45,678 bases of DNA from Desulfobacteraceae bacterium. GTDB lineage: Bacteria > Desulfobacterota > Desulfobacteria > Desulfobacterales > Desulfosalsimonadaceae. The translations under genes and the position numbers were made by a program. Shown here piece after piece: positions 6,355 through 17,522 of this stretch. The DNA lies in the NCBI GenBank assembly GCA_021737565.1, contig JAIPDS010000010.1, positions 1-45,678 of the forward strand. The letters run 5' to 3'. Under the pieces are notes generated by a model. It was not told where the DNA came from. It searched no databases and saw only the letters and a program-made list of their open reading frames with translations. Each line of letters starts with the position of its first letter. The first letter of the stretch is position 1.

Positions 6355-7527
6355 TTATGTCCCCGGCTTGTTGTAAAGGGGCGACATACTGCGAAGTGTT
6401 TTTACCACCCCGGAGAGCGAAGCCAGAAACTTATCAATATCCTCGAGGGTATTGTCTATGCTCCAGGATATCACAACCGTGCCCTGGGCATCTGCATGGC
6501 TTAATCCCAGGGAAAGCAGCACGTGGGAGGCTCTCAGGGATCCGGTGGCGCACGCGGATTTGGTGGAAACAGCCATGTTGTCCTCATCGAGCATCAGCAT
6601 TACGCTCTCGCCCTCTATATATTTCAGGGAAATGTTGAGCAGATTCGGAAGACTGTGCTCAAGGTTGGTATTTACAATGTATTCGTCTATGTAGCCGGGA
6701 AGTTTTCCAACCAGGTAATCCTTGATTTCTCCGAGGCGTACAAGGCGCTCTTTCATGTGCTTTGCCGCGAGTTCCGCGGCTTTTGCCATTCCTGTTATAC
6801 AGATGAGGTTTTCGGTTCCCGCGCGCTTGTTATTCTCCTGAACTCCGCCGTCGAGCAGCGGGAAGATCCTGGTACCGCGGCGGATATATAAACCGCCGGC
6901 CCCGGGGGGGCCGCCGTACTGATTGGATCCGAAACTGAGCAGGTCAACGTTTAGCTTTTCCACATCAACCGGCACCACGCCGACCGAATCCACTGCGTCG
7001 CTGTGGAACAGGACCTTGTTTTTCCTGGTTATCCGGCCAATTTCCTCTACGGGCTGGATGGTGCCGGTCTCATTGTTGCTGTGCATTACCGAAACCAGAA
7101 TGGTCTGATCGGTTATGGCGTCTTGCACCGCTTTTGGATCAACGCGGCCCGATGCGTCAACCGGAAGAGATGTCACCTTGAAACCCTGGGATGAAAACCT
7201 TTTGATACTTCGTAGTACAGAGTTGTGCTCTATATTGGTAGTAATAATATGATTGCCCTTTTCCCGGTTGGCCAGGGCCGCACCCTTTATGGCGTGATTG
7301 ACCGATTCCGTTCCGCAGGAGGTAAAAACTGTCTCCCTAGGGTTTGCGGCGTTGATAAGCCCGGCCACTGCTTGCCGTGCATCCGAAATAATTTCCGCTG
7401 ATTTTTCACCGGCCTTGTGCTGGCTTGACGGGTTGTGCAGATCGCTGTTGACCGCCTCTGTCATGACCTGCTTTACTTCCGGCAGAAGCGGAGTAAAAGA
7501 TATGTTGTCAAGGTTAATGTAATTCAT
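6355..7527 (-). CDS. iscS: IscS/NifS-family protein lacking the PLP lysine
   Basis: A 390-residue class V aminotransferase fold protein placed directly after iscU, so its context is iron-sulfur cluster assembly. Family landmarks are present: GTES at 72-75, His101, SNNETGTIQP at 150-159, Asp177, RAGTEN at 235-240, and the sulfur-carrying cysteine Cys326 in SACATGS. However, the segment that normally reads S-x-H-K-x-x-G-P-K is here S-N-Q-Y-G-G-P-P: Asn202 replaces the histidine and Gln203 replaces the lysine that forms the Schiff base with PLP. The usual Gln of DAVQ is Asp180. The DNA at about 6905-6930 confirms this with no frameshift. Ordinary desulfurase activity is therefore doubtful; Archaeoglobus IscS is a known family member also lacking this lysine. 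GGGGG lies five bases before the ATG. Confidence 0.9.
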   Translation of the reverse strand: MNYINLDNISFTPLLPEVKQVMTEAVNSDLHNPSSQHKAGEKSAEIISDARQAVAGLINAANPRETVFTSCGTESVNHAIKGAALANREKGNHIITTNIEHNSVLRSIKRFSSQGFKVTSLPVDASGRVDPKAVQDAITDQTILVSVMHSNNETGTIQPVEEIGRITRKNKVLFHSDAVDSVGVVPVDVEKLNVDLLSFGSNQYGGPPGAGGLYIRRGTRIFPLLDGGVQENNKRAGTENLICITGMAKAAELAAKHMKERLVRLGEIKDYLVGKLPGYIDEYIVNTNLEHSLPNLLNISLKYIEGESVMLMLDEDNMAVSTKSACATGSLRASHVLLSLGLSHADAQGTVVISWSIDNTLEDIDKFLASLSGVVKTLRSMSPLYNKPGT

Positions 7528-7539
7528 CTTTGCCCCCTT

Positions 7540-8058
7540 TTAATGCTCTTCTTCTGTAAGTTTCCTCTGGCAGGCTTCGCAGAACTCCGCATCACTGCTT
7601 ATCTCAACATCGCAGTAAGGACAGTGGCATGTTTCACCATCTGCGTGCTCGTGTTTCTCCTGCCTTTGCTCGGGCTTTCTGGCCACCCCGGTCTTTTTGT
7701 CCTTGTAATTCTGAATGGCCATGTGAAGAGCATCGGCTCCAAGATTCGAGCAGTGCATCTTGTTTTTCGGCAAACCTTCCAGGGCATCGGCCACATCCTT
7801 GTTTGTAATGTGTCTGGCCTCTTCTATGGTTTTTCCTTTTGCCAGTTCAGTGAGCATGCTCGATACAGCTATGGCAGAGCCGCACCCGAAGGTCTGAAAC
7901 TTGATGTCTGATATCCGCTCGTCTTCATCCACCTTAAGGTAGATTGTCATCATGTCTCCGCACAGGGGATTGCCTACTTCGCCCACTCCGTCTGGGTCCT
8001 CGATTACGCCCACGTTTCTCGGGTTTTTGAAATGATCCATCACTACCTGATTATACAT
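7540..8058 (-). CDS. iscU: IscU scaffold with C-terminal zinc-ribbon tail
   Basis: A 172-residue iron-sulfur scaffold. The first 120 residues are the U-type domain, with its three ligand cysteines (Cys33 in NPLCGD, Cys59 in FGCGSA, Cys103 in MHCSNLG) and the aspartate Asp35. A charged linker (about 121-142) follows. The tail then has Cys144, 146, 149, 160 and 163; CPYC and CEAC are spaced like a small zinc ribbon. This tail replaces neither the ferredoxin-like nor the Nfu domain of NifU. The start at 8058 is preferred because GGAGG precedes it by eight bases; a GTG five codons upstream overlaps that site. It is 12 bases upstream of iscS and surely co-transcribed. No iscR, hscA or hscB lies nearby. 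Confidence 0.92.
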   Translation of the reverse strand: MYNQVVMDHFKNPRNVGVIEDPDGVGEVGNPLCGDMMTIYLKVDEDERISDIKFQTFGCGSAIAVSSMLTELAKGKTIEEARHITNKDVADALEGLPKNKMHCSNLGADALHMAIQNYKDKKTGVARKPEQRQEKHEHADGETCHCPYCDVEISSDAEFCEACQRKLTEEEH

Positions 8059-8364
8059 GTCGCTTTCCTCCACATTTGATGTTCATATGTATTTCTCAGA
8101 ATAAGCATGAATCTTTTTTTGTACAATATGATTTTAAACATCCCGGCATAGCCGCCATACATCTGCTTGACCCGGGGGCAAAGCGTTATTATTTTAAAAT
8201 TATAAAAGTTCATTTTATTTTCACCACCTGTTCCTCCTTACTTTTCTCTTTTTCGGCCGGCAGCTATATCGCGCTTCCCCCCTATTATAAGGGGGATTTA
8301 AATAAAAACCCGCATGTCAACATTGCGGCCTTTCCCAAACCATCAAAAAAAGGGGGGCGGAAAA
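8059..8364. other. Divergent promoter region, iscU and GAF gene
   Basis: This 306-bp AT-rich stretch lies between the divergent iscU and GAF genes. Weak promoter-like pairs can be found in both directions, for example TTGACC at 8167-8172 with an AT-rich -10 region for the plus strand. None is strong enough to call. A short dyad (CCCCCT-ATTATA-AGGGGG, 8278-8295) lies about 70 bases before the GAF start. No IscR-type site was recognised. Confidence 0.4.
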
Positions 8365-10547: not shown

Positions 10548-12629
10548 TTATGCAGCATTCTGAGTCTTATCAGGGTCATAGCACACCCGGCAGCAATTAA
10601 GGCATCGAACGGCTTCGGCCAGGGCATCCGGCTCTGCAAGCACCTGATCCACTTCAATAAAACTGGTAATCCGCTCTTTTACCGGGATTTCCGGCATTTG
10701 AGCCCTTTTGCTCTTTTTAACCCCGGGTATGGAATCAAACAGGGATTCCTGTATATGACGCTTTGACAGCAATGCCTTCGGCTCCGGTTTTACTTCCTTT
10801 CCCTTTAAAAACAAATCTATGGCCCTTGCAGCACGCCTGCCGCCTCCGATGGCGTCCACCACCAGGGCCGGCCCGGTAGCCCCGTCTCCTGCAGCGAAAA
10901 TATAGGGAACATTAGACCTGCATGTGTCAGGATCAACATCAATTGTCCCCCATCTTGTAATGTTAAGCTCCTCCATCCGGGTGCCTTTTGTGCAAAACGC
11001 AGTATCTGTTGACTGACCGATCGCGGTAATAATCATGTCCACGTCAAGAACGGTTTCAGATCCCTCCACGGGTACGGGGCGCCTGCGTCCGCTTGCATCC
11101 GGCTCGCCAAGCTCCATCTTTAAATACTCGAGGCCTTTCACATTGCCCTCATCATCGCCTAAGACCTGGTTGGGGGCGGCCAAGTAAATGGACTCTATCC
11201 CCTCATGCGCTGCAGCCTCAATTTCCACCTCATTGGCAGGCATTTCCTTTCTTGTTCTGCGATAGACAATGTATACTTTTTCAACCCCGAGACGCACCAG
11301 TGTACGGGCGCAGTCAATCGCGGTGTTGCCGCCCCCTATTACCGCGGCACGTTTTCCTGCCTGTATCTTTTCCTGGTTTCCTATGCGTGAAAGAAAATCG
11401 ATGCCGGTGTAGCAGCCGTTTAAGTCCTCTCCCGGGATGTTGAGCCTGTAGTCCTTCCATGAACCCACACCCATGAAAATGGCGTCAAAGCCGGCACCCA
11501 CAAGGGAGCCGAGATCAAAGTCAACCCCCATTTTTACGTTGGTATGATATTGAATGCCAAGGTTTAGTATCCCCTGAATCTCCCAGTCAAGCACCGCCTT
11601 GGGAAGCCTGTACTCGGGTATGCCGTATCTGAGCATTCCGCCCATCTTGGGCATGGCTTCGAAAATGTTGACGCTGTGACCGACCCTTCGCAGAAAATAT
11701 GCGCAGCTTAGCCCTGCAGGCCCGCCGCCAATTACCGCCACCTTTTTGCCGGTATCCGGTGCGCAGGGGATGGGGATTCTCTTGCCGGAATTCATCTCCA
11801 TATCCGCCACAAAGCGCTTGAGCTGATTAATGGAAACGGACTCTTCGTCTTCTATGGCTCTTCTGCAGTATTCTTCGCAGGGGTGAGGGCATACACGCCC
11901 GCATGCCAGAAGAAGCGGGTTACGCTCCCTGATTGTATCAACCGCGGATTCGTATTCTTTATTCCTGATCTGACCGATATACCTGGGAATATCTATTTCC
12001 GCCGGGCAGGTCTGCTGGCACGGTGAGAGCGCGTCGTCTTCGGTATTTAAGTGCAGGAGCCTCTGGGACATCGTACGCACTTCCATAATGGATTTCGGGC
12101 ACACCTTTTCACAGGCACCGCAGCCCACGCATTTATTCCTGTCTACAACCGGATAACCATTGGGGCCCATCCTCAGGGCATCGAACTTGCAAGCCCTCAC
12201 ACAGTCACCAAATCCAAGGCATCCTATTTCGCAGTCTCTTTTACCCCCGTAAAACGCATTAACCGCGCTGCACCTGTTTAACCCCTGGTAAAAAAACCGG
12301 TCGGTAGCCCTGTCTCCACCCTGACAATTATTGTAGGACTTAAGCGGCTCCGCTGTGCCGGCTTCCGCCCCCATGATCGCCGCAATCTCGCCCACATTTT
12401 CCGGTCCGATCAGGATGCAGACATTGGGAGGGGCCTGTCCGTTTACTATGGCCTCGGCTGCCGCACCGCAGCCGGTATATCCGCATCCGCCACAGTTGGC
12501 ACCTGCAAGCAGGTCTTCCACCTTTGCAATCCGGGGATCCTCATATACGTAGAATATCCTGGAGGCCACGCTTAATGCTGCTCCGCATGCGCCCCCAAGA
12601 CCAAGTGTAAACAGTATTGCTTCTATCAC
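10548..12629 (-). CDS. rnfB: RnfB fused to GltD/NfnB-like NADPH oxidoreductase
   Basis: A 693-residue fusion. Residues 1-185 are RnfB, the ferredoxin-accepting subunit of the Rnf complex: an N-terminal membrane helix, the Cys46-49-54-71 cluster domain, and a two-cluster ferredoxin domain (Cys133, 137, 143, 147 and Cys167, 170, 173, 177). From about 200 a GltD/NfnB-like unit follows with its own cluster cysteines (204, 208, 243, 247, 251, 255), an FAD motif (GGGPAG near 298) and an NAD(P) motif (GGGNTAID) followed by YRRTRKEMPA, an arginine-rich stretch typical of NADPH sites. The C-terminus adds CLNCCRVC. The start is GTG with AGAGGA upstream. It is last in the rnf operon. The fusion suggests electron exchange between ferredoxin, NADPH and Rnf. 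Confidence 0.92.
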   Translation of the reverse strand: MIEAILFTLGLGGACGAALSVASRIFYVYEDPRIAKVEDLLAGANCGGCGYTGCGAAAEAIVNGQAPPNVCILIGPENVGEIAAIMGAEAGTAEPLKSYNNCQGGDRATDRFFYQGLNRCSAVNAFYGGKRDCEIGCLGFGDCVRACKFDALRMGPNGYPVVDRNKCVGCGACEKVCPKSIMEVRTMSQRLLHLNTEDDALSPCQQTCPAEIDIPRYIGQIRNKEYESAVDTIRERNPLLLACGRVCPHPCEEYCRRAIEDEESVSINQLKRFVADMEMNSGKRIPIPCAPDTGKKVAVIGGGPAGLSCAYFLRRVGHSVNIFEAMPKMGGMLRYGIPEYRLPKAVLDWEIQGILNLGIQYHTNVKMGVDFDLGSLVGAGFDAIFMGVGSWKDYRLNIPGEDLNGCYTGIDFLSRIGNQEKIQAGKRAAVIGGGNTAIDCARTLVRLGVEKVYIVYRRTRKEMPANEVEIEAAAHEGIESIYLAAPNQVLGDDEGNVKGLEYLKMELGEPDASGRRRPVPVEGSETVLDVDMIITAIGQSTDTAFCTKGTRMEELNITRWGTIDVDPDTCRSNVPYIFAAGDGATGPALVVDAIGGGRRAARAIDLFLKGKEVKPEPKALLSKRHIQESLFDSIPGVKKSKRAQMPEIPVKERITSFIEVDQVLAEPDALAEAVRCLNCCRVCYDPDKTQNAA

Positions 12630-16761: not shown

Positions 16762-17403
16762 TTAATATCCGTGGCATCTTTGACAATCATTCTCTGTCGG
16801 CCCGGCTCCCATATACTCATGGCATTGCCTACACTGGTTATGGAAAGCATCAGTGCGATTGCGCGGCTTGTGGCAGGCATTGCAGTCTTCGGTTGCCGGA
16901 CCCGTGCCAAAATCCTCGTGGCACCCTATGCACTGCCGGTGATAGGAATCCGCCAGGCTCGGCATATACTCATCGCCGGTATCGGCATGACAGGCATTGC
17001 AGTTCTGGGGAGCGGCTCCGCTGCTCTGGTCATACATGTGATGGCAGTCCGTGCAGGAAAGCCCGTAATACTCTGCATGAACATCATGATCAAAAATCCC
17101 TTTCTCACCGAGCGCCGGCTTGCGGGAGCTTTCTCCTGTATGGCAGCTGCCGCATGAGATCTCCTGCCCTTCTTTATCGCCCCCTTCCCATGCAATCTTG
17201 TGATGGCATTCCATGCATTCTAGCCCGTAGCTTTCGCTGTGGGTCATATGTTTGAAAAGGACGTTTTCACCGGTACACTCGTAAAATACGCGAACCGGCT
17301 CTTCCGGAGACCTGGCCTGGATAACGCCGTAAGATACAACCCCGACAATAAGACAGACCAGCGCTGCTGCACCGGCGAATTTCAGTTCTTTTTTCACTGG
17401 CAT
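16762..17403 (-). CDS. Rnf-associated octaheme c-type cytochrome
   Basis: A 213-residue membrane-anchored cytochrome with eight CXXCH haem motifs, at Cys63, 84, 117, 135, 158, 174, 191 and 207. One hydrophobic segment (about 8-28) anchors it so that the haem domain is periplasmic. Spare histidines in FKHMTH, FDHDVH, SYHRQC and AFHNQC are likely distal ligands, giving bis-His haems as in the cytochrome c3/c7 class. The start at 17403 has GGAAG nine bases upstream; a second ATG nine codons earlier is weaker. It opens the rnf operon. Multihaem cytochromes next to rnf are known in methanogens with cytochromes (MmcA) and in some sulfate reducers, where they link Rnf to periplasmic or quinone electron carriers. 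Confidence 0.9.
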   Translation of the reverse strand: MPVKKELKFAGAAALVCLIVGVVSYGVIQARSPEEPVRVFYECTGENVLFKHMTHSESYGLECMECHHKIAWEGGDKEGQEISCGSCHTGESSRKPALGEKGIFDHDVHAEYYGLSCTDCHHMYDQSSGAAPQNCNACHADTGDEYMPSLADSYHRQCIGCHEDFGTGPATEDCNACHKPRNRTDAFHNQCRQCHEYMGAGPTENDCQRCHGY

Positions 17404-17522
17404 ATTCTGATGCTTCCTTTCAGAGGGCATGCTTTCCGAGTTAGACCCGGCATTCAGTCCCGCCGGCCACCCCAGCCGTCTGGCTGACTGCCGAATAAAT
17501 TAACCAGAAATTTAAACTACTG

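Follow-up and report, generated by a model that had tools for sequence, protein, structure and literature searches.

The window, a stretch of 45,678 nucleotides from a Desulfobacteraceae bacterium, carries an iscS-like gene directly downstream of an iscU gene. The following features were assigned to the pair:

6355..7527, minus strand: iscS-like gene without the PLP lysine (P0001, 390 aa), based on its ORF, Pfam match and AF2 model
6472..6474, minus strand: codon of Val352, replacing the Arg that binds the substrate carboxylate (E. coli R354; role according to PMC9978102)
6550..6552, minus strand: TGC codon of Cys326, a retained cysteine with a putative sulfur-carrying or ligand role
6919..6924, minus strand: codons of Asn202-Gln203, replacing the His-Lys pair that holds the PLP phosphate and aldehyde
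6988..6990, minus strand: GAT codon of Asp180, replacing the Gln bonded to the PLP phenolate oxygen
7540..8058, minus strand: iscU, with an ATG start behind GGAGG (an alternative GTG start would be at 8073)
7570..7629, minus strand: zinc-ribbon-like CxCPYC-x10-CxxC tail of IscU, common to the IscU partners of lysine-less IscS

The iscS-like ORF has no internal stop and is accompanied by a plausible ribosome-binding site (AAAAGGGGGCAAAGATG). Codon readings for Asn202 (AAT, 6922-6924), Gln203 (CAG, 6919-6921) and Pro208 (CCC, 6904-6906), together with those for Asp180 and Cys326, reproduced the residues listed in the original prediction, which had named Asn-Gln for His-Lys, Asp for Gln, GPP for GPK and a retained cysteine. 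The strand needs correcting to minus, and two losses had been overlooked: that of the substrate-carboxylate arginine at Val352, and that of the lysine in a second iscU-linked IscS of the host (Val-Ser). The protein matches PF00266 (E 3e-66), so that a class-V aminotransferase fold is present, and it falls below the curated cut-offs of both TIGR02006 (IscS; 337.6 bits, cut-off 643.2) and TIGR03402 (NifS; 419.8 bits, cut-off 530.75). An AF2 model based on 63 aligned homologues, which supersedes an earlier one from a narrow alignment (pLDDT 68), has the IscS fold at pLDDT 94, only residues 325-330 in the Cys loop and the C-terminal end being modelled with low confidence. The nearest solved structures retrieved with this model by Foldseek include human NFS1, E. 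coli IscS and Archaeoglobus fulgidus IscS.

Our genome scan recovered 20 close relatives at 64-81% identity, after which identity dropped to 47%. All 20 have Asn at residue 202, and neither Asp180 nor Cys326 nor the rest of the Cys loop varies among them; at residue 203 they have Pro, Thr, Arg or Ser and never Lys, which speaks against a misread His-Lys pair. Among 395 Desulfobacterota species genomes, profile search and reading of sequences identified at least 64 that carry a lysine-less copy, distributed over 24 family groups, and none of the sequences read with a score of about 447 bits or more has His-Lys. Lysine is absent from position 203 in all 62 bacterial clade proteins, where Q, P, T, R, S, I or A occurs instead. 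At position 208 the clade has S, T, A, P, H, V or K, so that GPP is not clade-wide. The same change is seen in close relatives and in more than 60 sampled genomes, including the single-contig genome G331, which excludes sequencing error or chance. Frames are open across the clade and pairwise dN/dS is 0.05-0.11, indicating purifying selection, and the gene is not a pseudogene. The original prediction had expected one bacterial example to extend an idea known from archaea; what is confirmed is a conserved bacterial version of IscS without the residues for taking sulfur from cysteine, rather than one gene only.

The Lys, His and Gln of the PLP site occur in none of the 62 bacterial lysine-less sequences and in all 52 canonical His-Lys sequences, and Arg at 352 divides them in the same way (0/62 versus 52/52). 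Because all four residues are lost, both the cofactor and the substrate sides of the active site are gone. We take the lost His to be the counterpart of H205 in E. coli IscS. Other parts of the site persist: Cys326 is kept in 61 of the 62 sequences, the ring-stacking His101 and the Asp177 at the ring nitrogen are invariant, and Arg235 and Thr73 are also kept. The pocket may still bind something, given that His101 and Asp177 do not vary. Group I has Arg or Lys in place of Gly just before SAC in 49 of 50 sequences, the remaining one being gapped. The E. coli IscS counterparts of the lost Lys, Gln and Arg are K206, Q183 and R354; K206A and Q183E abolish desulfurase activity, and the conservative R354K is nearly normal (PMC9978102). 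Judged from these alignments, a loss of desulfurase chemistry is well supported, and the clade proteins would be expected to have no desulfurase activity.

The window IscU keeps the equivalents of C37, D39, C63, H105 and C106, in agreement with the original prediction of an intact iscU neighbour. In our collection of loci, which is unevenly sampled, iscU is adjacent and on the same strand for 80 of 83 lysine-less genes versus 15 of 65 His-Lys genes. It comes first in 68 lysine-less loci, and the basal group has the order iscS-iscU. All cluster-binding residues are kept in the IscU partners of the clade, nearly all of which end in a tail of the CxCPYC-x10-CxxC type. The tail matches zinc-ribbon models weakly (Pfam DZR, E 3e-4, below the gathering score). 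It is missing from the IscU partners of His-Lys and of archaeal IscS, a few clostridial ones having a different Cys-containing tail. We found no wider conserved operon around the pair: only iscU recurs, with dsr genes in three loci. Further lysine-less IscS paralogues with a longer Cys loop were observed at L182 (G062; SSQMLHGPVG) and L186 (G024; SSHLIHGPKG), each closely followed by an iscU of ordinary length.

Archaeoglobus fulgidus is a sulfate reducer. Its IscS (IscS2; PDB 4eb5, 4eb7, 4hvk) is the best PDB sequence match of the window protein (42% identity in the fold match), has Asn-Asp for His-Lys, Ala for Gln and Leu for Arg, and keeps the Cys loop, as does the window protein. The parallel between the two, drawn in the original prediction, thus holds at the level of sequence and fold. 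The bacterial clade differs in never having Asp at 203, in the placement of iscU before iscS (group I) and in its tailed IscU. In an ML tree built after removal of the motif columns, the 62 bacterial lysine-less sequences formed one clade (SH-aLRT 99), and the archaeal Asn-Asp group including A. fulgidus IscS formed a separate one (99). The best tree implies two lysine-loss changes; a single bacterial and archaeal clade is less likely but is not rejected (p-AU 0.22), and one shared origin with the archaeal Asn-Asp clade is thus neither supported nor rejected by this phylogeny. The bacterial proteins most likely represent a separate, IscU-modified lineage that would run parallel to A. fulgidus IscS. 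PMC7585200 cites A. fulgidus IscS as inactive in desulfurase terms and as contributing a Cys ligand to the cluster on IscU. It also describes IscS1 of Methanosarcina acetivorans as iscU-linked and without the catalytic lysine, and suggests that it is A. fulgidus-like; this protein is archaeal and uncharacterised, and we liken it to the clade by description. Canonical IscS/NifS proteins (E. coli IscS, human NFS1, TIGR02006, TIGR03402) share the fold (TM-score 0.93-0.95), family and IscU partnership of the clade proteins, which differ in having no PLP-site Lys, His or Gln and no substrate Arg. The window pair belongs with the A. fulgidus type of lysine-less IscS in having no PLP Lys, no Gln and no substrate Arg, while keeping the Cys loop and an iscU neighbour.

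The host genome carries dsrA, in keeping with the original prediction of a likely sulfate reducer. Counted by genome, dsrA was found in 56 of 64 with the clade versus 132 of 331 others (Fisher 6e-13), and by family, counted by hand, in 22 of 24 versus 32 of 83 (Fisher 4e-6); in these tests relatedness is only partly corrected for, and the clade may also be present in some unread genomes of the comparison group. The iscU-iscS pair lies directly upstream of dsrA in three genomes. In G177, the same-strand order is iscU-iscS, dsrA, dsrB, a small ORF, a cobB-type gene, a gap and a dsrK-like gene; G167 has iscU-iscS-dsrA-dsrB, and G125 has iscU-iscS-dsrA as far as its sequence was read. In eight lysine-less genomes, no dsrA hit exceeded the cut-off; several of the eight are incomplete, but completeness reaches 98% in G208 and G252. 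Many dsrA-bearing families are also without the lysine-less clade. Sulfate reduction is neither necessary nor sufficient for lysine-less IscS.

The original prediction had left room for a second, normal iscS or sufS in the host, whose genome is 88% complete. A NifS-like protein with His-Lys is indeed present, unlinked to iscU; the second iscU-linked IscS is itself lysine-less, with Val-Ser for His-Lys, and is encoded beside an Rrf2-type regulator. This second locus (L085:7145-9117, contig C110) has the order iscS-rrf2-iscU, and its IscU is without the zinc-ribbon-like tail. G044 and G336 have a similar extra IscS copy with Pro-Ala for His-Lys. One SufB/D-type protein of the host adjoins a SufC-type ATPase; this sufC-sufB pair (L193:1154-3153, contig C110) has no sufD or sufS nearby and resembles the minimal SMS system. 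Most clade genomes checked, the host included, hold at least one His-Lys desulfurase-like protein, a possible sulfur supplier. Profile searches of draft genomes, on which all of the following absences rest, found no His-Lys desulfurase in G210 (99% complete), whose class-V proteins are the lysine-less IscS and SerC only, or in G009 (85% complete). SufB/D is absent from G210 and, overall, from 8 of 11 genomes tested, so that the IscU-IscS pair is probably the main scaffold there. In G134 (L174, contig C54), a His-Lys NifS-like domain was seen behind a molybdopterin-oxidoreductase-like domain in one open frame.

What the sequences show for the clade is a lost catalytic set, a conserved Cys loop, the operon with iscU, the IscU tail, purifying selection, and association and linkage with dsrAB. 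This combination suggests that clusters are built from free sulfide, with IscS kept only as a helper. We consider it reasonably probable that the dead IscS provides IscU with a dimeric platform and a cysteine ligand, the sulfur coming from sulfide. The protein would be an IscS-fold dimer with no PLP-lysine Schiff base and no hold on the cysteine carboxylate, retained as the partner of a zinc-ribbon-bearing IscU. IscS would dock IscU, and the inorganic sulfur would come as sulfide from dissimilatory sulfite reductase, which produces it in bulk. By analogy with the A. fulgidus IscS-IscU complex, Cys326 would probably bind the nascent [2Fe-2S] cluster transiently as its fourth ligand; the IscU tail may also have a role. 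Sulfide is a plausible sulfur donor, as anaerobic E. coli without IscS can assemble Fe-S clusters from H2S through IscU (PMC13015791). Fe-S assembly from sulfide without a cysteine desulfurase is also known from SMS (SmsCB), a minimal archaeal system (PMC12192291); its scaffold is of the unrelated SufBC type, whereas that of the clade is IscU, with the desulfurase fold kept.

The main rival is a persulfide relay through Cys326, to which we assign a modest chance. The cysteine would be loaded by a protein of the TusA/DsrE/YedF type, a rhodanese or polysulfide and would pass the sulfur to IscU, making the protein a sulfurtransferase and not a ligand donor. Few parts of the protein are as well conserved as the Cys loop, the basic residue before SAC in group I could tune Cys326, and a YedF-like sulfurtransferase gene lies within the dsr cluster of G177. 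No sulfurtransferase gene, however, is conserved beside the pair as iscU is, and the A. fulgidus protein provides a precedent for a role as ligand. It is rather improbable that the dead IscS acts as a regulatory or heterodimeric subunit, pairing with an active His-Lys paralogue and directing it to IscU. Many genomes do hold such a paralogue, including that of the host (C52), and the fold is intact in the AF2 model; however, G210 and G009 have no His-Lys paralogue, and the paralogues, whose genes lie elsewhere, show only about 40% identity.

We regard as very improbable that the protein is still a PLP enzyme, holding PLP non-covalently or by another lysine and turning over cysteine. The retention of His101, Asp177 and Thr73 would fit, as would the residual PLP in E. 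coli IscS K206A (PMC9978102), but the phosphate, phenolate and substrate contacts were lost together. The original prediction had allowed for another lysine taking over; Lys81, the only lysine invariant in the clade, is common in active enzymes (39 of 52 canonical IscS), and a replacement lysine was rejected. Lys323 of the window protein was likewise discarded, most clade members having Arg there. Gene decay or sequence error, to which only a clade member without about 13 residues including the loop cysteine (L145:2998-4119, G286) might point, is ruled out by clade-wide conservation.

Sulfur is generally regarded as entering the bacterial ISC pathway by way of cysteine desulfurase. In the lysine-less clade, strong selection has preserved the IscS fold, the cysteine loop and the pairing with IscU, with the chemistry lost. 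A fold kept without its chemistry makes two old questions testable, namely which roles IscS has beyond sulfur release and whether free sulfide serves anaerobes for cluster building. Desulfobacterota genes annotated as cysteine desulfurase may therefore not be enzymes. We see an even chance that the clade marks a large, old sulfide-producing lineage with a desulfurase-free ISC system. Such a lineage would combine zinc-ribbon IscU with dead IscS and build its clusters from sulfide, with the gene pair next to dsrAB in some members and with at least one near-complete genome without an IscS/NifS/SufS-family desulfurase. Lysine-less IscS is known from archaea; no bacterial clade this large, having an IscU variant of its own, turned up in the accessible literature. 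Our search, which covered few subscription papers, returned no description of a bacterial lysine-less IscS.

Elsewhere in the window, a minus-strand gene at 10548-12629 encodes an RnfB-like protein that appears to carry a fused glutamate-synthase-like NAD(P)/FAD domain. This gene ends an rnf cluster that includes a multihaem cytochrome at 16762-17430.
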